A stretch of 64,000 nt of DNA from Fibrobacterota bacterium (GTDB taxonomy: Bacteria; Fibrobacterota; Fibrobacteria; UBA11236), in assembly GCA_947466585.1 (NCBI GenBank), contig CANIEU010000001.1:174414-238413 (forward strand), given 5' to 3'. This document shows positions 23,681-34,718 of this stretch, one piece after another. How positions within the stretch are numbered: position 1 is the stretch's first letter; every line of letters starts with the position of its first letter. Below the pieces are notes generated by a model. The model was not told the DNA's origin. It was given only the letters and a program-made list of their open reading frames with translations, and did not search any database. The position numbers and the translations under genes are program-made.

Positions 23681-25654
23681 TCACGGAATCAGTACGATCT
23701 TTCGCAATGTCAGGCCATCGCCCTTGGCCTCGATCACCACGAGCTTTCCGCGCAGAAGCGGCAAGGCGAAACGATACGCAATCGGGCCGCGGCCCGCGCC
23801 ATTACCGAATACGTTAGCGAGTTCCACGCCGCGCAGATCGGTGAGCCGCAAAGTAGAGATGCCCGCGAAGGGAACCGAAACCTGTAGTTGATTTCCGGTC
23901 ACCGACCATGTCATCCGCTTTGCCAACGCACGTCTTTGCACGTTGCGATCCAATGCGACCGCGCCCGTGTCCGAGAACGGCGTGCTGGGAGAAATCGCGT
24001 TGAGAGTATAGAAGGCGATCGTGTCACGCGGTGGTTCGTTGGTAGCCGAGCGGTAGCTTTTCTTGACGTTCAGTTCCACGATGCGGTGCGTACCGAAACC
24101 CGCCGTAGCACCGGTGGTGGTGCGCGCTACGAGCCCGGGCAGGGCGAGATACACGCGCCGGCGGTCCGGCGAAATCCGGATTTCAGTCGGGGTGAGTGTG
24201 GCGAGAGTTCCCGACATCTTGCCGCCACCATAGGCGGATGTCGGGTTATAGGCGTAGGTGCGGATGTTGTAGCTGGATGCGAGCATGGCGAGCGCTGTGT
24301 CTACGGGCTGCGTGAATTCGAATTCCATGCCTTGTGCGCGGGAGCGCACCGCCAGTATTTCGAAGACGGGCGTACCGTTGGGTGTGAGCTTTTGCAAGCC
24401 GTAGTACTGCCCGTTCCAGCTCCAATCTCCGGACGTTCCGATCATTCCGACATAAAGCTGCCCCTGAGCGTCTTCCAACAACCGGTAGGCACCACCTTCG
24501 ATGCCGCCCATCCACGCGAAGCCGGCGCCTTGGTATTCACCCCCCACCTTTTCCACGAAAAACCGTTGGATGCCGCCCCACGTCATGTCACCCATAATGA
24601 ACTGCCCGGCATATGTGCCCTTGGTCAAATAAAGCGGTTCACCGGGAGAGTTGGAGAAAACTCCTGTTGCGTTTTTGGATCCGCTACCGCCCGAGCCTTC
24701 CTCCGGCAGAAACACCGCGGCGGGAGTCTCGGGGAGTGCGCTCCACGCCGAATCCCCGGAAATGCCGGTGTGACGATATCCGTAGTGCGCACCTTCCTTG
24801 AGTTGAATGAGCTTGTTGGTGGGCACATAAATGCCTTGGGTTTCGTTCACCCAAATCGAACCTTCCGGCCCCCTGGCAAGGCCGGTGGAATGACGGAAAC
24901 CGGTCGCGACCGTTCGGAAGCTGCCCCGTTTATTCGTGATTCCATCGCCCGGGGTGACCGCGAGCGATGTCCCTCGATAGGGATTGATCTGAGTCAGACC
25001 GTTGTTCATCAAGGATGAGGGATTGATATGGAAAACGCCGTCGAGGTAAAGCAATCCGTACAGCCACTCGCTGCGGCCTTTAACAGGGCGCAACGAGTCG
25101 CCCGCTTCCGCTCCCGAGCTTTGAGGTGTGCCCGGCAGAATGAAAACCGTGTCTACACTGGTGACGGGACCACTATTGCCCGCACGGTTGAGCCGCAGAA
25201 TGCGGTTGCCGCCTGAGACGTAGATCACATCATTCACGACCGTAAGGCCCATGATATCCTCGAGCCCGGACGCGATGGTGTCAATACTTACACCTGAAGA
25301 ATCGGTAGCCACGTTCACGCCGCTCAGCACATACACCTTGCCGGTATACAGACGATTACCGAAGTTCGTCCCCGAGGCGCAACATTGATTCTCGGCCGCA
25401 CCTGTGTTACGCAAGCCGCCCCACGTGCCCACAACAAGGCGCCCGTCGGAGAGAAACGCCATACCACCCACGTCGGGCCGAAAGTTACCGGGCCGCAGGC
25501 TGGTGATCGTGTAGGCCGGGTGCGGGGTGGTGAGGTGCGTTGCGGCCATGGCTGCGTTCACGGCAAAAAAAACGAGCGCACCTGCGAGCCGGACGAGTCC
25601 AACACGTCGGACGAACCGAGTGGACCCGGAAACTTTCGGAGCTTGTGTCACCAT
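23681..25654 (-). CDS. Secreted beta-propeller protein, glucose/sorbosone dehydrogenase-like
   Basis: A 657-residue exported protein. A signal peptide with RFVRR and a hydrophobic stretch ends near AMAATH (residues 20-40). The body resembles six-bladed propellers of the glucose/sorbosone dehydrogenase group (GGMAFLSDGRLVVGTWGG, GLEDIMGLTVVNDVIYVSGG, EGSIWVNETQG). The last 60 residues form a small beta domain ending RKIVLIP, resembling cell-surface or sorting domains of FCB bacteria. I see no heme motif. ATG 25654 was preferred; GTG 25684 is in frame upstream. It is separated by a 9-nt repeat array from the OM protein gene upstream. The catalytic role is unproven. Confidence 0.65.
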   Translation of the reverse strand: MVTQAPKVSGSTRFVRRVGLVRLAGALVFFAVNAAMAATHLTTPHPAYTITSLRPGNFRPDVGGMAFLSDGRLVVGTWGGLRNTGAAENQCCASGTNFGNRLYTGKVYVLSGVNVATDSSGVSIDTIASGLEDIMGLTVVNDVIYVSGGNRILRLNRAGNSGPVTSVDTVFILPGTPQSSGAEAGDSLRPVKGRSEWLYGLLYLDGVFHINPSSLMNNGLTQINPYRGTSLAVTPGDGITNKRGSFRTVATGFRHSTGLARGPEGSIWVNETQGIYVPTNKLIQLKEGAHYGYRHTGISGDSAWSALPETPAAVFLPEEGSGGSGSKNATGVFSNSPGEPLYLTKGTYAGQFIMGDMTWGGIQRFFVEKVGGEYQGAGFAWMGGIEGGAYRLLEDAQGQLYVGMIGTSGDWSWNGQYYGLQKLTPNGTPVFEILAVRSRAQGMEFEFTQPVDTALAMLASSYNIRTYAYNPTSAYGGGKMSGTLATLTPTEIRISPDRRRVYLALPGLVARTTTGATAGFGTHRIVELNVKKSYRSATNEPPRDTIAFYTLNAISPSTPFSDTGAVALDRNVQRRALAKRMTWSVTGNQLQVSVPFAGISTLRLTDLRGVELANVFGNGAGRGPIAYRFALPLLRGKLVVIEAKGDGLTLRKIVLIP

Positions 25655-25686
25655 TTCAATATAAGGCGGCTGGCGCTTCCACACCG

Positions 25687-25722
25687 GGGGTTTAAGGGAC
25701 TTAAAAGGCTTAAGTGGCTTAA
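25687..25722. repeat. Four-copy 9-nt intergenic array
   Basis: Four contiguous 9-mers fill the 35-nt gap: GGGGTTTAA, GGGACTTAA, AAGGCTTAA and GTGGCTTAA. On the minus strand they read TTAAGCCAC and so on; the stop TAA of the 25719 gene lies inside the last unit. Copies share TTAA with a variable first half. There is no second arm. Confidence 0.7.
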
Positions 25723-27320
25723 TAGTTGAAACTCAACCGCAGCGACACTGCGTGGGTGCGGGGAAAGCGGTTGGCCACGTCCTCGGTGATTTCATTCATC
25801 TGGAAGAGGTAACCCACCTCGATGTTCTGGGTGAGGAAGAAGCGGAAGTCGGCCTCCAGGTTTTCGAGCTGGAAGTTCTGGATCTTCGCGTCCTCCGAGA
25901 ACACTTCGGCGCGCAGATCCAGCGTGAAGCGCGATGAGAGGCGCACCTTGCCGTTCAGAACGCCTTCCGCGCCCACGGTATAAAGCGAGGGCGCGCGTTC
26001 ATAAACGTTGGTGGCACGGGCGAGGTAATCTCCTCTGGAGATTTCCTGCCGCGCAGCGAGGCCCATCTGTGTCGAAAGCTCAAGTTCGTAACGTGAAAGC
26101 CACTCGATGTTGACACCCGCGCCCTCGGCCAGATTGATCGGATAGAGCGGGGGCTGCCATTCGAACGAGCCACCGGTGGCGACCTTGGTGGTATCCATCG
26201 CATTTACGATAAACACGGTATCCAGGTTGACTTCGGCGGGAAACAAGTGCGTTGAAGCCTGCCCGCGCACATAGGGACCGATCCAGTTATTGAGCCGGCG
26301 CACCCAGGTGGAGCGCAGCTGGAGAAAATCCTGCGTGGGACGCAAGGGCTCTTTGTCTTGCTTGAGGAAGCTGTTTTGCAAAAACAATTCGGTGATGCCG
26401 AAAAAAGCGGCGCGGTCGTAGCGTGCGCGCAGGCGCATGTCGGTGGAGAACAGGACGCTTTGTGTGGCGAGATTCGCCTGATCAATCACACGCGTGAAGC
26501 TGGCGTTGCCGCCCGCGCGCAGTCCGTAGGTCCAATACTGCCCCACGCGCGCCCGGGTGTTCAGAGATTTGACACCGCCTGCGATCAGATTGCCCGCGTC
26601 GTCGAACACGACTTCGACGGAATGCATTTCGCCGGGATTGATCTGGATGGTGATGTAGTTCCGCAAGGAGTTGTAACCTTCGCCCACGCGCGAGATGCGG
26701 TAAAGCCCTGGTTCCAGAATCCACACGTCGATGTCCTGAAGGCGCTCTTCCTTGAAACCCTGACCGCGACCGTAGTTGACCCAATCCTCCATGCGGATCA
26801 GATCGTATTGGCCATCGACGTATTCGCCCTTCGAATTCAGCGTTTCCACCAGCAAACCGCCCCAGTCCGGATACACGGTGGTGGTGCGCCCCTCGTCGAT
26901 CCGCACCGTGGTGCGGAGCCGTCGTGCGCTCACGCCCGAACCGAAGCGCACTTCGTAGGTACCCGAATCCAGCAGGACGCGGCGTCCGGTTTGCCCGGTG
27001 GATACCATATCGCCGCTGCGATCGAAGATGACGAGTTCCGGTTCGCGCCGGGGCTCGCTGTAGGTGGGCACGAACAGAGCTCCTTTACCCAAGGTGACCA
27101 GCACCGGATCGCGCGCGAGCTGTTCGTGCACGGGCGGGGCGATCCAGTTCAATCCCGTGGCCGAATCGACGGGGTGCGCGACGGTGCGCGATTTGGGCGA
27201 CACCACGGCACGCGGTTCCGACACCACCTCGTCACCCGGCAATGCATCCAGCACGGGTGCGGCGAAGGCGGCCGCACTCAGCATCAGACAGAGTATCGGT
27301 GCGAGGGGAGAAAAAGGCAT
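25719..27320 (-). CDS. Putative outer membrane beta-barrel protein of the MCE operon
   Basis: A 533-residue protein with a signal peptide (MPFSPLAPILCLMLSAAAFA). Residues about 60-270 look like PEGA-type or similar small beta domains (TYEVRFGSGVSARRLRTTV, GLYRISRVGEGYN). Residues about 275 to the end alternate hydrophobic and polar residues and finish SLRLSFNY, with a C-terminal aromatic as in outer membrane barrels. It begins 22 nt after the PqiC-like lipoprotein gene on the same strand, hence probably the last member of the lipid-transport operon. An OM docking or exit role is possible. I do not recognise the family. Confidence 0.6.
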   Translation of the reverse strand: MPFSPLAPILCLMLSAAAFAAPVLDALPGDEVVSEPRAVVSPKSRTVAHPVDSATGLNWIAPPVHEQLARDPVLVTLGKGALFVPTYSEPRREPELVIFDRSGDMVSTGQTGRRVLLDSGTYEVRFGSGVSARRLRTTVRIDEGRTTTVYPDWGGLLVETLNSKGEYVDGQYDLIRMEDWVNYGRGQGFKEERLQDIDVWILEPGLYRISRVGEGYNSLRNYITIQINPGEMHSVEVVFDDAGNLIAGGVKSLNTRARVGQYWTYGLRAGGNASFTRVIDQANLATQSVLFSTDMRLRARYDRAAFFGITELFLQNSFLKQDKEPLRPTQDFLQLRSTWVRRLNNWIGPYVRGQASTHLFPAEVNLDTVFIVNAMDTTKVATGGSFEWQPPLYPINLAEGAGVNIEWLSRYELELSTQMGLAARQEISRGDYLARATNVYERAPSLYTVGAEGVLNGKVRLSSRFTLDLRAEVFSEDAKIQNFQLENLEADFRFFLTQNIEVGYLFQMNEITEDVANRFPRTHAVSLRLSFNY

Positions 27321-27341
27321 GTTGCGATTCCCGGGCGAGCG

Positions 27342-28046
27342 TCAGCGCACGGCGGGGCGAATCGGGGGCGCCGCGGGAGCGAGCCGGGTGCGCTGCGCCT
27401 CCTGCAACACGGGTTCGAGCGCTTCGACCACGCGGTCGTGGATGATGGAGGTCAGCGAAGCAAGTTCGCGCACCACGTAAACCGGCTCTTCTTGCGGAAC
27501 GGCCTTGCGGAGATCGTACAGTTCCTTCCAGAGGATCTGACCGGTCTTTTCGTCGATCAGCTGGTATTCGACCGCAATGTGGGCGAACCACTTGTCGGGT
27601 CCGTCGAACTCTTCGATCGCGCGGACATCACAGGAGATCTGGAAATCGGGAGGGACCGATTCCGCCACGCGCGTGACGTTTTCGAAAAGTTGCGCGGCGC
27701 GGAGATGCTTGAACAACAGATCGCCGATCATACGCTCCGGATCCACCGCCCACAAGTTGTAGGAGTAGAACTGCATCTGGTAGGCGCTTTGCCGGTAAAC
27801 GATCTGGCTGCGACGGTAGGCTTCGGCGATGCTCGGTTCGCGCAGTCGCACCGCGAAAGGATAAGGTCCGCGTGCCAATCGCGGTTCCGTTGAAACGGGA
27901 GTGTAATCGAGGGTGTAGTAGCGGGTCTCGGGCGTTTTACCGAAAAAACATCCCGTCAGGGTCGACACCAAAGCACACGCCGTCAGCAGCGCGAGGAGGG
28001 GTGCGGCGGCGAAGGGGCGCGCAAAATTCCGGGTTGCGGTGATCAC
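27342..28046 (-). CDS. PqiC-like ABC transport auxiliary lipoprotein
   Basis: A 234-residue lipoprotein of the auxiliary component family found with MCE transporters (PqiC/LetC-like, formerly DUF330 type). Two lipobox-like sites occur, LLTAC24 and LTGC33. The mature part starts with RYYTLDYTPV, the typical first strand, and contains IAEAYRRSQIVYRQ and YNLWAVDPERMIGDLLFKHL, which match the family. It is anchored in the outer membrane in known cases. Its start overlaps the MlaD stop by 4 nt. Confidence 0.83.
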   Translation of the reverse strand: MITATRNFARPFAAAPLLALLTACALVSTLTGCFFGKTPETRYYTLDYTPVSTEPRLARGPYPFAVRLREPSIAEAYRRSQIVYRQSAYQMQFYSYNLWAVDPERMIGDLLFKHLRAAQLFENVTRVAESVPPDFQISCDVRAIEEFDGPDKWFAHIAVEYQLIDEKTGQILWKELYDLRKAVPQEEPVYVVRELASLTSIIHDRVVEALEPVLQEAQRTRLAPAAPPIRPAVR

Positions 28047-28927
28047 GGACGACGCTCCTGCTTGTCTTCGCGGCGCAACAGCACCGAGGGGTTTTCCCGG
28101 ATCTGCCGGGTGAACGACTGCATGTTCTTCAAACTCTCGCGCAAGTTTGACATGGACACGGCCAGATCTTCCTGCGTGCGGCGCACGGTGACATCGAGCG
28201 TGCCGGCGACCTTCTGAATATCTTCAGCGGCCTTTTTGTACTCGTGGATCATGCCGTCCACGTCGGATTTATCCACCTTGTTGCGTGCCGAGCGCACCGT
28301 CAGGTCGGCCTGATCCAGAAGCGAGGCAATGCGCTTTCCGGGGCGCAGGCCTTGGACGTCGCGCGCCATCGAATCGAGGGATTCCGCGAGATTGGCGGAG
28401 GCGTTCATCACCCGGTTGAGGTTTTCCCGGTTGTCCATTTCGGTGATGGCGATGACATTGCCCAACAGGCGATCGACCTTGTAAGCGATGGAGTCGGCCC
28501 GCGAGGTGAGACGCCCCATCATCGAAAGGCTGGAGGCGACCTCGCCCCCTACGGGAACGCGCGGAGAACTGTAGCTGCCACCCGTGATCTCCAAATATTT
28601 GAGGCCGGTGATGCCGTAGCTGCCGAGCGTGGCCGCCATGTCTTGCCGGATGTGGGTGCCGTGCCGCACGCGGAACTGCACCACGGTGCGCCGGATGTTC
28701 AAGCTGTCGGCGGAAATGCCGGTAACCTGACCCACGTCCACGCCGTTCTGACGCACAGTGGATCCCGGGCCGAGGCCGGTGATCGATTCGTCGAGACGGG
28801 TGTAGTAATCGTCGGTACGCGTGAAAAGCCGTCCTCCAATCAGGAAGAGGACCAAGGCCACCCCTGCCGACACGAGGACGACCAGGAATACGCCCAGGCG
28901 GGCTTTTTCGGCGCGCGTGGCTTCCAT
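28043..28927 (-). CDS. mlaD: MlaD-family MCE-domain protein
   Basis: A 294-residue substrate-binding subunit of an MCE lipid transporter. One N-terminal membrane helix (about 10-32) is followed by a single MCE domain (about 38-118: GLGPGSTVRQNGVDVGQVTGIS, YGITGLKYLEITGG). The remainder is a long helical region (about 150-290) that probably forms the hexameric tube seen in longer MCE proteins. It is longer than E. coli MlaD (183 residues) because of that helix. It sits directly after mlaF with no gap. Confidence 0.9.
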   Translation of the reverse strand: MEATRAEKARLGVFLVVLVSAGVALVLFLIGGRLFTRTDDYYTRLDESITGLGPGSTVRQNGVDVGQVTGISADSLNIRRTVVQFRVRHGTHIRQDMAATLGSYGITGLKYLEITGGSYSSPRVPVGGEVASSLSMMGRLTSRADSIAYKVDRLLGNVIAITEMDNRENLNRVMNASANLAESLDSMARDVQGLRPGKRIASLLDQADLTVRSARNKVDKSDVDGMIHEYKKAAEDIQKVAGTLDVTVRRTQEDLAVSMSNLRESLKNMQSFTRQIRENPSVLLRREDKQERRP

Positions 28928-29743
28928 TTAGCTCTCCAGGTGAAACGCGATGACGTCCGCAGATGCGGTTCCGGGAGAGGAGGGTTGCCGATTCAAAAAA
29001 TCGCGCACTTCCTCGGGACCGGAAGCCGCTTCTTCAAGCGTCCCCTCGAAGATAACCTTTCCCGTGGACAGGAAGGTGATCCGGTCCGCGATGGCGCGGA
29101 TGGAATCCAGTTCGTGGGTCACCACCACCATGGTGATTCCCAAGGTTTCACGCAATTCCAGCAACAAATCATCGAGACCGCGCGAAGTGACGGGGTCGAG
29201 TCCGGCCGAGGGCTCGTCGCAGAAGAGCAGAGCCGGATCGGCCGCAAGCGCCCGGGCAAGGCCAGCGCGCTTGCGCATACCTCCCGAAAGCTCCCCGGGC
29301 ATTTTGAGGCCCGCGCCGTCGAGCGATACCTGTTGCAGTTTGAGATGGGCCAATTCCCGCAGCGCAGCACGCGGCAAGTCGGGATAATGGATACGCAACG
29401 GCAAGGCCACGTTCTCTTCCACGTTGAGAGAAGAAATCATGGCGCCGCCCTGAAAAAGGACCCCGATTTTCAAAAACGATTCGTCGGCCGGGCGCCCTTG
29501 CGTCCAGTCGAGTGGTTCACCGAACAATTCAACCGATCCGGCCCAAGGCCGTTCCAGGCCCGTGGCGGCGCGCAACAACGTGGATTTGCCACAACCCGAA
29601 CCGCCGAGAACCACGTGGATCTCCCCCGCGGGAACGTAGAGATCGACCCCGTCGAGAATCACGCGCGTGCCGTAGCCGGCGCGCAATCCGCGGATGCGGA
29701 GCGGCGGAGCGCCTGTTGCGGGAGAGTTGGGCGTGGTCGTCAC
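28928..29743 (-). CDS. mlaF: MlaF-like ABC transporter ATP-binding protein
   Basis: A 271-residue ATPase that powers the MCE transporter. The Walker A VLGGSGCGKST is near 42-52, the Q-loop near FQGGAM, the signature LSGGMRKRAGLARAL near 148-162 and Walker B LLFCDEPSAGLDP near 170. The GTG at 29743 is the start: it overlaps the MlaE stop (GTGA) and gives an N-terminus of normal length. The longer open frame upstream lies within mlaE and lacks similarity. Lysine and arginine in the signature (MRKRAG) are typical of MlaF. Confidence 0.92.
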   Translation of the reverse strand: MTTTPNSPATGAPPLRIRGLRAGYGTRVILDGVDLYVPAGEIHVVLGGSGCGKSTLLRAATGLERPWAGSVELFGEPLDWTQGRPADESFLKIGVLFQGGAMISSLNVEENVALPLRIHYPDLPRAALRELAHLKLQQVSLDGAGLKMPGELSGGMRKRAGLARALAADPALLFCDEPSAGLDPVTSRGLDDLLLELRETLGITMVVVTHELDSIRAIADRITFLSTGKVIFEGTLEEAASGPEEVRDFLNRQPSSPGTASADVIAFHLES

Positions 29744-30816
29744 AGGTAGAAGAAGAATGAGAAAAGGGCGTCGGCCAGCACGATGGCGAAAATACAGGTG
29801 ACCACGCAATCGGTAGCGGCGCGTCCCACGGCATCGGCACCGCCGCGCACGCCGAGGCCTTTTACCGTGGCGATGAACACGATCAACCAGGCGAAGGTCA
29901 CCGATTTCACGAGCATCTGAAACACGTATTTGATTTCGACCCCGCCCTGCAATTGATTCAAGAAGGCCTGCGGCGCAATGTTGAAGAAAAGCAACGCCAC
30001 GACCATACCGCTGAAAATCCCCGAAAGCGCGGAGGCCACCGTGAGCAACGGTTGCGTGACGGTGAGTGCCCAAAAGCGCGGAATCACCAGAAACTGGAAG
30101 GGGTTGGCGGCCATGGCGCGCAGTGCGGAAACTTCTTCCTGCACCGTCATGGTGGCCAGCTCGGCGGTGATCGCACTGCCCGAGCGTCCGGCCAGAATCA
30201 CCGCGGTCATGAGCGGACCGATTTCGGTGATCATGCTGATGCCGATGCCGTCTGCGAGAAAAATAGCCGCCCCGTATTTTTCGAGCTGCAACCCGGACTG
30301 CAGGGCCAAGGTAAACCCGATCAAGGTCGACAACAGCAACACGATGGAAATCGCCGTGCTTCCCAGCCGGATCATCTGGGTCACCGCCTCGCCGCGCAAC
30401 AGCGTTTTGGGTTTGCGCCATCCCAACGTGGAGTGATACAACGACTCCGACAGCAGCAGCGCGACGTCCTTCCACTCAAGGGCCAGCGCATAAGCACCGC
30501 CGCCGACCGCTTCAAAAAGTTTCGGAACCGGCGTCTCTTCCCCCTCGGCGGGGTGCGCGGGTGCCTTGGCCAAAACAGCCGCCGGTGCTTCCTGCAGCGC
30601 GTGCAGGACCAGCTTGTGCCCTCCCGCTTCGGCCTGCCGGTGGAGGGAGGTCAGAAAGGCCAACCCTAACGAGTCGAGTCGAACAAGCGCCGCGCAATCG
30701 AGATGCACGTCCCCACCGCCCCGCAGAATCTCCCCCGCCCTTTTGGAAAGATCGGTCACAACCGCAGGTGTCATCGCTGCGGGCACCGTCAGGAGAGTGG
30801 TAGAAGGGGCGGACAT
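29740..30816 (-). CDS. mlaE: MlaE-family permease with N-terminal STAS domain
   Basis: A 358-residue inner membrane subunit. Residues about 1-95 form a STAS domain (VHLDCAALVRLDSLGLAFLTSL), the role played by separate MlaB in E. coli. Residues about 120-358 are the MlaE permease: ESLYHSTLGWRKPKTLL, then EIGPLMTAVILAGRSGSAITAELATM, the family signature. The ATG at 30816 gives MSAPSTTLL; the longer frame adds 16 residues without a plausible start context. This fusion makes a free MlaB unnecessary. It starts the minus-strand arm and is divergent from the tolC-like gene. Confidence 0.9.
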   Translation of the reverse strand: MSAPSTTLLTVPAAMTPAVVTDLSKRAGEILRGGGDVHLDCAALVRLDSLGLAFLTSLHRQAEAGGHKLVLHALQEAPAAVLAKAPAHPAEGEETPVPKLFEAVGGGAYALALEWKDVALLLSESLYHSTLGWRKPKTLLRGEAVTQMIRLGSTAISIVLLLSTLIGFTLALQSGLQLEKYGAAIFLADGIGISMITEIGPLMTAVILAGRSGSAITAELATMTVQEEVSALRAMAANPFQFLVIPRFWALTVTQPLLTVASALSGIFSGMVVALLFFNIAPQAFLNQLQGGVEIKYVFQMLVKSVTFAWLIVFIATVKGLGVRGGADAVGRAATDCVVTCIFAIVLADALFSFFFYL

Positions 30817-30900
30817 AAAGGAAATAATAGGGTATTTGCAGTCGGTAACGGTCCGGTTCCACAACTTACGAAGCAGGTCGACCGTTGGACGGGAGGAAGG

Positions 30901-30918
30901 TTGGGGTATTCACCCCAA
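30901..30918. other. Hairpin in the mlaE/tolC divergent region
   Basis: TTGGGG (30901-30906) pairs with CCCCAA (30913-30918) around TATTCA. It lies in the 227-nt region between the two divergent arms of the lipid transport locus and could be an operator or part of a 5' leader. No promoter is clear. Confidence 0.3.
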
Positions 30919-31043
30919 TGCACCGACTTTCCCCACCGCCAGCCGGAGCGGATGTGACGAATATCCACAGGCGGGCATTCGAACGGCTTACTACTTTTTC
31001 TCCGGATTCGGGCCTTTTCCCGATACGCCCGACGCGCCTACCC

Positions 31044-32528
31044 TTGCATCCCACTTACAAACGTATCCCCCGCCCGCGCTCCCTCACCGGGTTCGCCCTC
31101 GCAGCGACTCTGATGACCGTGGTGCACGCACAGAGCCCCGCCCTGACCGGTCTTACTTGTGCGGATGTGGAACGCATCGCTCTGCAAGATCATCCGGTGC
31201 TCGCCGAGAAAGCGCTCGAGGTGGATCGGGCTCGTGAAAAGGTGCGGGATGTCGACATGGGTGTCATCCTCCCCAAGTTCGAGATCGAGACCGGTATCGG
31301 CCCTGCTCCGGGCATCCGGCAAACCTTGGAAACCGGAGGCGTGACCAAGATCAGTGGCGACACCATCATGCAATACGAACGCGGCTTCAACTTCGGCGAA
31401 TGGGGACCGTTCTTCGGAATTCAGGCGCGCGTGGTGCAGCCGTTGAATATCGCCCGCTACCGCGCAGGACGGCGCGCAGCGACCTTGAACGTAGACGTCT
31501 CGGAATCCGCTTTCAAAAAAGAACAGATCGACGTCTCCGAAGAGGCCCAAACCATCTGCCAGCAAAGGCTCTATGCACTGACCATGCAGCGCGAGTTGCT
31601 AGCCGCCCGCAAAGATCTCGAACGCGCGCAAAAAAAACTTTCAGACCGGCTCGACCAAGGCGATGAAGACGTCTCTCAAACCGACGTGCTGCAGCTCAAG
31701 GCTGGCCGCTTCTCCCTCGATCAAGGTGTGAACGAGGCGGCCTTAGGCGTGTCCCGCTCGGCTTTGGCCCTGCGCTTTCTGGTGGCACAGCCCGACAACG
31801 ATACCGCCGCCGTGGCGCTTTCCGACTCTGTGCTGAGTTTACGCTCCGAGACGCTGCCTCCCCTCGACAGCCTCAAACTCATCGCCTTGCGCGGACACCC
31901 CGATCTCGCTCGTCTGCGCAACGGCATCGTCGCACGGCAAGAACTGCTGAAGGTCGCACAAGGCGAAATCGGTCCCGACATCTTTCTGTTCGGCACTTTC
32001 GAATACAGCAAGGCGTGGTCTTCGGACCGCCAGTCGGGCGGCGGCGATCCGTTTGCGCGCGACCCGTTGAATCAACTTTCCGCCGTGGCCGGCCTCGGCA
32101 TGCGCCTGCAACTCAACTTTTGGAGCCAGTACCAAGTGTACCGCCGCGAGCGCCTGAACCTGCGCCAGCTCGAACGCACCGAAGTGTATGCCGCCCGAGG
32201 CGTGCTGATGCGGGTGGAAGACGCCTACCTGCGCATGGTCAAGGCGCGCACCGACGCCGAAGACGCGCAAAACGCGCTGCGTGCCGCCGAAGCCTGGCTC
32301 AAGGGCGCCGCCATGCGGTACGATCTCGATCCGTCGGCGGCGGCAGGGCTCACGTCACCCTTCAAACAAACGATCTCGGCCAAACGAGACTTTTACAAAG
32401 CCGTGCTCGACTACAATATCGCCGTCGCGGGGGTGTTGAAAGCCACCGGATGGACGCTCTCGGACTACCTTGGTAACTTGCAACTGCAAGGCGCACGCAC
32501 GGCGCCCTCTGCGGAGGAGAACAAATGA
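31044..32528 (+). CDS. TolC-family outer membrane protein of the MCE locus
   Basis: A 494-residue protein with a signal peptide (SLTGFALAATLMTVVHAQS) and the two-fold coiled-coil pattern of TolC-like efflux proteins: CADVERIALQDHPVLAEKALEVDRAREKVR in the first half and LKLIALRGHPDLARLRNGIVARQELLKVAQGEIGPDIFLFG in the second. These form trimeric outer membrane channels with periplasmic tunnels. The start was placed at TTG 31044, which gives a normal signal peptide; the open frame continues upstream to 30885 but would put about 50 polar residues in front of it. It overlaps mlaC by 4 nt (ATGA), linking a TolC channel directly to a lipid shuttle. Confidence 0.82.
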   Translation: MHPTYKRIPRPRSLTGFALAATLMTVVHAQSPALTGLTCADVERIALQDHPVLAEKALEVDRAREKVRDVDMGVILPKFEIETGIGPAPGIRQTLETGGVTKISGDTIMQYERGFNFGEWGPFFGIQARVVQPLNIARYRAGRRAATLNVDVSESAFKKEQIDVSEEAQTICQQRLYALTMQRELLAARKDLERAQKKLSDRLDQGDEDVSQTDVLQLKAGRFSLDQGVNEAALGVSRSALALRFLVAQPDNDTAAVALSDSVLSLRSETLPPLDSLKLIALRGHPDLARLRNGIVARQELLKVAQGEIGPDIFLFGTFEYSKAWSSDRQSGGGDPFARDPLNQLSAVAGLGMRLQLNFWSQYQVYRRERLNLRQLERTEVYAARGVLMRVEDAYLRMVKARTDAEDAQNALRAAEAWLKGAAMRYDLDPSAAAGLTSPFKQTISAKRDFYKAVLDYNIAVAGVLKATGWTLSDYLGNLQLQGARTAPSAEENK

Positions 32529-33232
32529 AACATTCGAATAGAGCCCTTTCTTTCTTGGTCGCCGGCTTGCTCCTCTGCACCGGCCTCGCTTTTTCTGCAA
32601 CCGCCACTACGGCTGCGACGGGCGCGCCCTCCGACCCCGTTCAAAAAATCCGCACGCAAGATCTCGAGCTCCAAAAGCTGCTGCGCGACAAGGGTGCCGC
32701 GGCGCACACCGCACGCATCAAGGTGCTGATCAACGGGATCTTCGATTTCGAAGAACTCGGTCGTCGCGCGCTCGGCACCGCCAACTGGAACAAAATGACC
32801 GCCGCGCAAAAGCCGCGCTTCGTGAAAGCCTTCAAGTCCATGGTGGAAAACTCCTCCGTGAAACGCCTCGAAGCCTATACCAGCGACTCCACGCGTTACG
32901 CGCCTGCAGACATCAATGGGGATCGCGCTGTCGTCAAGGCGCGCGTCTTCTCCAAGGGCACCGAGTCGCAAGTGGAGTACAAGCTGCTGCTTAAAAGTGG
33001 CGAGTGGCGCGCTTGGGATCTCGTCATCGACGATCTCAGCACTGCGGGGAATTACGGCGACCAGTTCCGCGACATTCTGAAAAAGAACACGTTCGACAAC
33101 CTCATCGGTCGCCTCGAAAAGCGGGCGAAGCAGGATGCCAATGCCAAGGCACAAGCCGTTGCGGACGACGTGAAATCCAAATCCTCGACCTCCGGTAAGG
33201 CCGACGCGACGAGACCGCCCTCGGGCCTCTGA
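32525..33232 (+). CDS. mlaC: MlaC/Ttg2D-family periplasmic phospholipid-binding protein
   Basis: A 235-residue exported protein: signal peptide SFLVAGLLLCTGLAFSATA, then the MlaC fold (ILINGIFDFEELGRRALGTANW-like region near 60-85, MTAAQKPRFVKAFKSMVENS, YKLLLKSGEWRAWDLVIDD near 150, NYGDQFRDILKKN). MlaC shuttles phospholipids between the MCE complex in the inner membrane and an outer membrane partner. The last 40 residues are a low-complexity Lys/Ser tail. It is coupled to the tolC-like gene upstream rather than to mlaD as in E. coli. Confidence 0.88.
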   Translation: MKHSNRALSFLVAGLLLCTGLAFSATATTAATGAPSDPVQKIRTQDLELQKLLRDKGAAAHTARIKVLINGIFDFEELGRRALGTANWNKMTAAQKPRFVKAFKSMVENSSVKRLEAYTSDSTRYAPADINGDRAVVKARVFSKGTESQVEYKLLLKSGEWRAWDLVIDDLSTAGNYGDQFRDILKKNTFDNLIGRLEKRAKQDANAKAQAVADDVKSKSSTSGKADATRPPSGL

Positions 33233-33254: not shown

Positions 33255-34094
33255 ATGTCGATATGGGTCACCATACTGATCGGAACGCTATGCGTTCTGT
33301 TCGCATTCGCAGCCCTGTGCCTGCTCCTGCTGGCCTTGTTGCACGTCCGTTACCGCTTGGCCTGGCACGGTACGTGGGGCGGCACGGCTTCCGAACAAGA
33401 CGGCTCGGTGCGTCTCGAGTTCGGCTTTCCCGGTTTCATGCACAAATGGGGGTGGGAGCGCTCCGGAACGGAAGCGCCACCCTCACCTGCTCCGAAGAAT
33501 CATTCAAAGCCTGAAACGCCAAAGACGGCCGTGTCGGCAACGCCTGTGACGGCCACACCTGCCAAGCCGGTAAAGGCTTCCGCAGCCGAGTCGGTTCCGA
33601 AGCCTCTGCCCGAAAGGGCGCCTTTCAAAACGGCCGATCCTCCACCGCAGCCTGCCGCACCACTCACCGACCCCAACCGTTACCGCAAGGCGCTTTTTCG
33701 TCTGGCCACCGATGGGCCTGCCTGGGAACTGCTGGTGCGTTACGGTTTCCGCAGCGTGGTGCGCTTCTACAAACTCCTCGGACCGCGTCTGGAGATCGCC
33801 ATCGGGCATCCCGACCCGGCCTTTTTGGGTCGCACCGCGGGTCATTGGTACGCGGTGTCGCCGCTGCTGCCGTTGGGCGAAACCATTGTCGGCTTCCGGT
33901 TTCAGGATCGCGCGCCGACGTTGCGGGTGCGCGCCGAAGGTGGCTTTTCAGGTCTCACCCTGCTGCTTTTTTGCGTGAACAGCGTGGTGACCTTTCCGTT
34001 GATCGGCATCGGGCGGCGGGCCTGGCTTGGCTGGCGTCGCCGCGAAATGACCGGGTGGCGCGCTTTCGCCTACCGCCGCATTCAAGCCCTCTAA
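33255..34094 (+). CDS. DUF2953-like membrane protein
   Basis: A 279-residue protein with an N-terminal membrane helix (about 5-28), a Pro/Ala/Lys/Thr-rich linker (about 75-140), and a C-terminal domain with FRSVVRFYKLLGPRLEIAIGHPDPAFLGRTAG and a hydrophobic segment near 235-250. The layout (helix, short beta part with RYRLAWHG, variable linker, then the IGxPDPAxxG-like block) resembles DUF2953 proteins, whose function is unknown. It follows mlaC by 22 nt and may be co-transcribed, which hints at an envelope role. The family assignment is tentative. Confidence 0.55.
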   Translation: MSIWVTILIGTLCVLFAFAALCLLLLALLHVRYRLAWHGTWGGTASEQDGSVRLEFGFPGFMHKWGWERSGTEAPPSPAPKNHSKPETPKTAVSATPVTATPAKPVKASAAESVPKPLPERAPFKTADPPPQPAAPLTDPNRYRKALFRLATDGPAWELLVRYGFRSVVRFYKLLGPRLEIAIGHPDPAFLGRTAGHWYAVSPLLPLGETIVGFRFQDRAPTLRVRAEGGFSGLTLLLFCVNSVVTFPLIGIGRRAWLGWRRREMTGWRAFAYRRIQAL

Positions 34095-34289: not shown

Positions 34290-34718
34290 ATGGGCTTTTT
34301 GGATGCGGAAGACGAGAAGAAATCGGCTTTTTGGGATTGGTTTTTCGGAATCGGCCTGCTCGTGCTGGTTGGCGGGTTCACCCTGTATTATCAGGTTCAG
34401 AAACGCGCAACGCAAAAGCGTTTCACCGCCGCCGACACCTTGTTCCAGACCGGAGATTTCGCGGGTGCCGCGCAAGCCTACGAAGAACTCAAGGACGCCT
34501 CGTACCTGACTGCGGGCGACGACAGCACGATTTACGCGCGTCTCGACTCGGTGGAATCGTTGGAAGAATCGGGACGTGAGGCGGTGGCCCGCTTGCGCAT
34601 GAAGGTGGCTGCGGGTGACACCACGGGACTGCGCACCGAACTCGATACGCTCAACTTCCACGGCTTGCTGGAAACCCCCGACCAATTTTGGGTCGACTCT
34701 GCGAAGGCGGCTCGCTAA
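34290..34718 (+). CDS. Small single-pass membrane protein, unknown
   Basis: A 142-residue protein. An acidic N-terminus is followed by one membrane helix (about 16-34: FFGIGLLVLVGGFTLYY), and then a soluble helical part with a TPR-like pair of helices (FTAADTLFQTGDFAGAAQAYEELKDA). It could be a periplasmic assembly or anchoring protein. It has a 195-nt upstream gap, so probably its own promoter, though none is clear; GGAGG 10 nt before the ATG (34279-34283) is a good ribosome site. Its stop overlaps the convergent tsaE stop by 4 nt. I do not recognise a family. Confidence 0.6.
   Translation: MGFLDAEDEKKSAFWDWFFGIGLLVLVGGFTLYYQVQKRATQKRFTAADTLFQTGDFAGAAQAYEELKDASYLTAGDDSTIYARLDSVESLEESGREAVARLRMKVAAGDTTGLRTELDTLNFHGLLETPDQFWVDSAKAAR

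Follow-up and report, generated by a model that had tools for sequence, protein, structure and literature searches.

A TolC-like protein encoded beside mlaC as candidate outer-membrane partner of MlaC in Fibrobacterota without MlaA

A gene for a TolC-like protein of the OEP family was found to overlap mlaC, the gene for a probable periplasmic lipid carrier, in a 64-kb stretch of DNA (the window) from contig 1 of a Fibrobacterota (class Fibrobacteria) genome assembly of 2.24 Mb that is 98.4% complete. The two genes belong to the plus arm of a locus whose minus arm encodes an MlaEFD set, a lipoprotein and a barrel-like protein. Coupling of MlaC to a TolC-like protein without MlaA is supported throughout the class as well as in other phyla, and we consider the TolC-like protein to be the outer-membrane partner of MlaC in place of MlaA with a probability of about 0.65. 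Genomes and loci are referred to by G and L numbers; f1 is the family of the window, f2–f5 are families, and g1, g2 and g10 are genera. Family f1 differs from f3, which holds most of the sampled members of the class and appears to be Fibrobacteraceae.

The gene pair in Fibrobacterota and in other phyla

No match to MlaA (PF04333) was found in the genome of the window or in any of 150 Fibrobacterota genomes (0/150), and the same search gave matches in E. coli and Caulobacter controls. The absence of mlaA claimed in the original prediction was thus confirmed, and no relative in the phylum was found to keep mlaC together with mlaA, the arrangement that would point to chance adjacency of the tolC-like gene. 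MlaC and the TolC-like protein were each found in 108 of the 150 genomes, the latter in two of them (G132 and G037) by weak matches alone, which leaves 106 with strong matches. In 96 of the 106 genomes that have MlaC together with a strong TolC-like match, the two genes are neighbours on the same strand. The distance from the TolC-like stop to the first ATG of MlaC ranged from -11 to 128 nt in the 16 Fibrobacterota loci measured and is -4 in the window, where the predicted 4-nt overlap was present in the sequence as ATGA at 32525-32528; ATG-start overlaps of 4 nt were found in L034, L116 and L127 as well. MlaC was single-copy in 14 of 16 genomes examined, with no copy in the other two, and the genome of the window has one. 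All 17 members of the window OEP alignment matched PF02321, and the profile of the window MlaC matched solved MlaC/Ttg2D structures, the best match being 8dte (E 1e-14).

The genes tsaE and serS are the outer neighbours in the window and in four f1 loci. Because the outer neighbours differ between families f1 and f3, the conserved unit is the TolC-like/mlaC pair, often together with the protein encoded behind MlaC, relatives of which were found at this place in f1 and in many f3 loci. Upstream of the pair, f3 loci contain a GH57-like gene, a gene for a transmembrane (TM) protein with a weak or no STAS match, and a gene for a membrane lytic transglycosylase. In f3 and f4, a gene for a membrane-anchored SLT lytic transglycosylase precedes the pair (L042 11406-14637, L045 6350-7736, L047 7327-8064); this enzyme could make room in the peptidoglycan for an envelope-spanning part.

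A search of 391 genomes with the profile of the TolC-like family included about 224 from outside Fibrobacterota (handles above G166 being assumed to lie outside). Matches at E<1e-20 were obtained in 17 outside genomes, all of which have MlaC (17/17; P 7e-15 for this co-occurrence, hypergeometric, 17 among about 224 genomes, with relatedness ignored). Forty outside genomes have MlaC at E<1e-10, a threshold that excludes G183, G215, G219, G256 and G330 (MlaC E>1e-10), and 22 of these 40 have MlaA. The 18 MlaA-less genomes represent 18 different families, and every one of them matched the TolC-like family at E<=1e-10 (18/18), compared with two of the 22 MlaA genomes (G187, weakly, and G313). At E<1e-20, the 40 genomes divide into 21 with MlaA only, 16 with OEP only, one with both and two with neither; in the genome with both (G313) the genes lie on different contigs, and the two with neither have an OEP at 2e-13 and 2e-18 adjoining MlaC. 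Eight outside genomes without MlaC matched the TolC-like profile at E 1e-10 to 1e-20, and the one of these that was opened, G169, was RND-linked by neighbourhood.

The TolC-like gene lies directly beside mlaC in 11 of the 18 MlaA-less outside genomes (G180, G194, G199, G214, G258, G260, G293, G297, G315, G316 and G341) and is separated from it by one gene in three more (G277, G344 and G362). MlaA adjoins MlaC in 14 of the 22 outside MlaA genomes. Two loci contain both genes of the pair within an mla run, in the order mlaE-F-D-C-TolC-like in L112 (G214) and mlaE-F-D-TolC-like-mlaC in L114 (G260). Besides, the pair adjoins an MMPL pump in L110, the TolC-like gene adjoins MMPL in L115, and MMPL lies further off in L119; the TolC-like gene adjoins a CDP-alcohol phosphatidyltransferase gene in L118 and L120, and MlaC adjoins a PF01663 phosphodiesterase gene in L111 and L122. 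In G209, an MlaC match was seen at the C-terminal end of a 748-aa frame (L154 5172-7415), the N-terminal part of which looks protease-like by eye.

In the OEP tree, one clade with 99/99 support (100/99 without G180) takes in every one of the 12 TolC-like proteins from Fibrobacterota and 18 of the 19 from outside. The six efflux proteins and the G351 protein stand apart from it; few efflux proteins were sampled, and the rows were picked with the family profile. This MlaC-linked clade holds the TolC-like protein of 17 of the 18 MlaA-less genomes. For the MlaC tree, 8 of the 18 Fibrobacterota rows aligned were taken, along with 14 further rows of OEP type and 22 of MlaA type. The tree includes L053, from a g10 genome with the genes apart, and omits the second copy of G315, extra copies of G171 and G251 and the MlaCs of G354, G351, G209 and G296. 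It splits with 90/96 support: one clade holds 20 OEP-type rows and G313, the other 21 MlaA-type rows together with the MlaCs of G214 and G260. These two genomes have a TolC-like gene with an MlaA-type MlaC in an mla run, as would be expected after replacement of MlaA, placement being unsure in view of the long branches of the tree.

The genome of the window contains 12 OEP domain matches in six genes, ten of them in five other genes and the remaining two taken as those of the window gene. A HlyD-type adaptor gene adjoins four of the five other OEP genes and an RND pump gene adjoins the fifth; RND, MacB or ABC-2 genes were found near all five. No HlyD-type adaptor or pump gene was found beside the window TolC-like gene among the ten window proteins scanned, and the drug exporter that the original prediction offered as an option is not supported, since the other five OEP genes adjoin adaptor and/or pump genes and the window gene does not. 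A role as the only general duct of the genome was likewise rejected on account of these five genes. An RND-linked OEP gene of this genome (L100 5267-6403) adjoins a gene for a phosphatidylglycerol lysyltransferase-like protein (PF09924). Compared with efflux paralogues of the same genome, the first tip of window-type proteins is two residues longer and acidic, and the second tip has YDLDPS-like residues where the paralogues have xxxG; the second-tip residues vary in outside relatives. A GPxP motif follows the first barrel strand in most window-type rows. TolC came out on top of a Foldseek search with a low-confidence OEP model, although at an E value no better than 1.4e-3, and the OEP profile gave no match to solved structures below E 0.028.

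The locus of the window and its minus arm

The seven genes of the original prediction were all found at the places given there, and six of them received the predicted family by Pfam (Table 1).

Table 1. Features of the two-armed locus in window coordinates
Feature	Position	Strand	Basis
533-aa secreted protein, last gene of mlaEFD operon	25719..27320	-	DUF3078-like
PqiC-like lipoprotein	27342..28046	-	PF03886 (ABC_trans_aux) E 1.1e-16
Long MlaD (MCE domain, helical region, NPSLLLR-type tail)	28043..28927	-	PF02470 E 7.5e-13
MlaF-type ATPase	28928..29707	-	PF00005
STAS-MlaE permease, N-terminal STAS (MlaB-like) fused	29740..30822	-	PF02405 E 4e-63, STAS_2 E 2e-10
Divergent intergenic region between arms	30823..31043	.	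Gene coordinates
TolC-family (OEP) outer-membrane protein, MlaC-linked clade	31044..32528	+	PF02321 E 3e-22
MlaC, probably soluble periplasmic lipid carrier	32525..33232	+	PF05494 E 5e-32
Conserved protein of unknown family behind MlaC; by eye, probably two TM segments	33255..34094	+	
Probable single-TM protein (by eye)	34290..34718	+	Follows in families f1 and f2

The start of the OEP gene is uncertain: the frame is open from TTG 30885, and TTG 31044 is better for a signal peptide as judged by eye. No inverted repeat of at least 12 nt and no sigma-70 consensus site were found in the intergenic region. The first gene behind mlaC gave no Pfam or NCBIfam match for its product, and membership of the second in the plus-arm unit is uncertain.

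In the minus arm, STAS-MlaE scored 201.5 bits with the NCBIfam model of the MlaE subfamily, slightly below the cut-off of 212.2, and the best NCBIfam model for the ATPase was MlaF (167 bits, cut-off 441). The MlaD profile matched PDB 13hr_I over nearly its whole length (positions 23-310, E 1.6e-38), and the same entry contains a PF03886-type lipoprotein (chain A), to which the lipoprotein profile matched at E 4e-5; this profile also matched 2iqi (E 4e-8) and, at no better than E 1, PqiC 8q2c. The lipobox Cys33 of the lipoprotein was invariant (16/16). The window MlaD ends in a conserved ENPSLLLR-type tail with no further domain, and the barrel-like protein is a separate gene. Because its MlaD and lipoprotein profiles match chains of 13hr, the minus arm looks like a bridge of the Mpc/Pqi type to which a DUF3078-like protein has been added.

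The 533-aa protein itself had no Pfam match, but DUF3078 was matched at E<=0.1 by 10 of the 19 members of its alignment (best 8.6e-7). From its sequence relatives, it is probably an outer-membrane beta-barrel with a periplasmic N-terminal part. Its AlphaFold2 model was unusable (pLDDT 39.8; shallow alignment of 4 sequences), and its profile gave no match to solved structures below E 1.8. The proposal that it is a second outer membrane candidate is plausible through its DUF3078 relatives, while the modelling did not yield the fold. Behind its gene lies a gene for a 667-aa secreted protein (window 23681-25684, minus strand), relatives of which were seen behind the barrel gene in the g1 loci opened, and none in g2 loci.

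The minus arm recurs across Fibrobacterota, the 533-aa family being present in 65 of the 150 genomes. The genes for MlaD, the lipoprotein and the barrel were contiguous in 17 of the 18 barrel-bearing genomes opened outside f1, the exception being L077, with the barrel alone; in L072, counted as contiguous, MlaD appears to be split into two pieces that lie on different strands. In the g10 loci L065, L067 and L069, no MlaE or MlaF gene was seen upstream of the minus-arm genes. In two f3 genomes (G001 and G030), MlaD and the lipoprotein were present with no barrel match, and MlaE and MlaF clearly adjoin them in G030. The genome of the window has two further MlaE genes (L085 7356-8159 and L086 6954-8557), one between open frames of 1412 aa and 891 aa, and the other behind a dnaB-like gene (by eye) and with an MlaF-type ATPase.

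In each of the 10 sampled f1 genomes, that of the window among them, the TolC-like and barrel genes share a contig but not a strand, and the genes between them were found in all ten. The divergent layout was not seen outside f1 in the sample: in f2, f5 and those f3 genera that have both arms, these were on different contigs, except in G072, where they share contig and strand with several genes between them. The two-armed locus of the original prediction thus holds for f1 but not as a general system, and the layout was rejected as the conserved unit; it is a family trait that joins two older units.

Explanations of the pair

As a mechanism, the plus arm may be a two-protein outer-membrane module, consisting of the MlaC carrier and a TolC-family partner that replaces MlaA. 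TolC-family proteins are trimers with a helical barrel that extends far into the periplasm. In this account the altered periplasmic tip of the TolC-like protein would be the site at which MlaC docks and exchanges lipid. The counterpart at the inner membrane would be an MlaFED transporter, in the window the adjacent complex of STAS-MlaE, MlaF, long MlaD, lipoprotein and barrel, and in some other lineages an MMPL pump. The coupling of the TolC-like protein to MlaC put forward in the original prediction is borne out by gene adjacency, by the absence of MlaA and by recurrence in other phyla, while we infer its passage of lipid through the duct, as we do the contact between MlaC and the OEP, the exchange of lipid and the direction. 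The neighbouring MlaFED may be the inner-membrane end in the window organism, but a capped needle might need no carrier. As to direction, neighbours such as MMPL and lipid enzymes in other phyla tend to favour export, and mlaEFD neighbours allow either direction.

Several observations weigh against the TolC-like protein as partner of MlaC in place of MlaA. The pair is apart in 10 of the 106 genomes, all of genus g10. Four such loci were opened, and in three of them a gene for a secreted, probable outer-membrane protein of about 240 aa follows or overlaps the TolC-like gene (L065 6329-7057, L068 8833-9576 and L070 6579-7340; none in L066), with no Pfam match for the L065 copy scanned. G135 and G075 have MlaC with no detected TolC-like OEP. 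The profile search over the 391 genomes scored at most four candidates per genome. Outside the phylum, the G351 protein falls outside the MlaC-linked clade, the stretches opened around the OEP genes of G209, G296 and G351 showed no MlaC, and that of G354 ends at a contig edge. The starred branches of the MlaC tree force one change of partner only, and the mutual exclusion of MlaA and OEP could come from lineage, MlaA being common in Proteobacteria, and not from replacement. The longer first tip, common in outside relatives, is missing in L112, L117, L122, L123 and L126; the comparison with efflux proteins covers six proteins from two genomes; and the AlphaFold2 model of the TolC-like protein was poor (pLDDT 48; shallow alignment of 5 sequences). 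Finally, no mlaEFD set was found near the pair in the f2, f3, f4 and f5 loci opened, so that MlaFED is no more than a candidate for the inner-membrane partner.

We give a little less than an even chance to another explanation, namely that the two arms are independent lipid systems. The minus arm would be a carrier-free Mpc/Pqi-like bridge, the pair would serve another transporter (a short MlaD complex, an MMPL pump or other), and the divergent neighbourhood would reflect co-regulation or chance; MlaC and the TolC-like protein could be partners here too. The separation of the arms in f2, f3 and f5 genomes, the MMPL neighbours in L110 and L115, the two further MlaE genes and the Brucella genome with Mpc, for which no detectable MlaC is given in the part of the source available (PMC12436622), are in agreement with this, whereas the divergent joining in all ten f1 genomes and the OEP and MlaC genes within the mlaEFD runs of L112 and L114 speak against it.

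More tentatively, the step from an inner-membrane lipid pump (MlaFED or MMPL) to a TolC-type duct, or back, may be served by MlaC where efflux systems have a membrane fusion protein. The result would be a non-continuous "shuttle tripartite" lipid exporter or importer, the ancient alternative to the MlaA route in MlaC-bearing bacteria of many phyla. It seems unlikely that the task of the pair is outward transport of a special lipid resembling hopanoids, polyketides or glycolipids and not the balancing of phospholipids: the window MlaC scored higher with the HpnM than with the MlaC model of NCBIfam, both below cut-off, and in other phyla the pair or its OEP lies near MMPL, CDP-alcohol phosphatidyltransferase and PF01663 phosphodiesterase genes, but no lipid-synthesis enzyme was found among the ten window proteins scanned around the pair, and a plain mlaEFD set is the partner in L112 and L114. 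It is improbable that the TolC-like protein serves as an ordinary duct in efflux or secretion for pumps encoded elsewhere and lies beside mlaC through a shared envelope operon, for its PF02321 domain and the resemblance of the low-confidence model to TolC are outweighed by an adjacency kept across deep divergence and seen in other phyla, the co-occurrence with MlaC, the separate clade and tips, and the adaptors or pumps that the five other OEPs have of their own.

If the TolC-like protein is the partner of MlaC, it would provide a second outer-membrane end for MlaC in bacteria without MlaA, and its superfamily, known as exporters of drugs and proteins, would gain a task in lipid traffic. Recurrence of the pairing in distant MlaA-less bacteria suggests a second, apparently undescribed lipid route to or from the outer membrane. 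The pairing lends itself to testing: it involves two adjacent genes, a single contact is predicted, between MlaC and the TolC-like tip, and the phenotype expected concerns lipid distribution rather than drug sensitivity.

Comparison with known systems

Tripartite efflux pumps such as AcrAB-TolC and MacAB-TolC have a TolC-family outer-membrane component; the window differs from them in having no membrane fusion protein gene adjoining, different tips and MlaC adjoining. The HpnM/HpnN system has an MlaC-family carrier, and an MMPL pump was found near the pair in some other phyla, with none beside the pair in the window, whose MlaC scored 66.7 bits with the HpnM model TIGR03481 (cut-off 160.1).

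The Mpc system of Brucella abortus shares with the window an MlaEFD set and a PqiC-like lipoprotein in one operon (PMC12436622). The available part of this source reports no detectable MlaC in the Brucella genome and mentions no TolC-like gene or DUF3078-like barrel; the window genome has one MlaC, perhaps serving another system. E. coli PqiABC, as described in the same part of that source, shares a PqiC-type lipoprotein with a helical MCE needle and differs in having PqiA, with no ATPase domain, and three MCE rings. Veillonella parvula has mlaEFD-tolC-tamB with no MlaC and no MlaA, according to the part of PMC10665443 available. Shared with the window are the tolC homologue near MlaEFD (directly behind it in Veillonella) and the lack of MlaA, whereas the Veillonella MlaD carries a C-terminal barrel that the window MlaD does not have; the same part of that paper proposes no lipid transport role for TolC, places MlaABC mostly in Proteobacteria and gives no barrel on MlaD of the FCB group.

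No description of an MlaC/TolC-like pair was found in the open-licence literature searched, and the available parts of PMC10094684, PMC13082787 and PMC8035174 contain nothing on it. In F. succinogenes, an MlaC-like "lipoprotein" (FSU_1094) was 3.68-fold lower on cellulose than on glucose, as given in the part of PMC6851124 available.

With the Mla system of E. coli (MlaFEDB-MlaC-MlaA/OmpC), the window shares MlaE, MlaF, MlaD, MlaC and the STAS domain. It differs in the absence of MlaA, in the fusion of STAS to MlaE with no separate MlaB in the operon, in the long MlaD, in the lipoprotein and barrel-like genes of the operon, and in the TolC-like gene beside mlaC. An E. coli-type Mla system was rejected because MlaA, its defining member, was tested and absent; the pair is a variant of the Mla kind with a TolC-like protein where MlaA would be.

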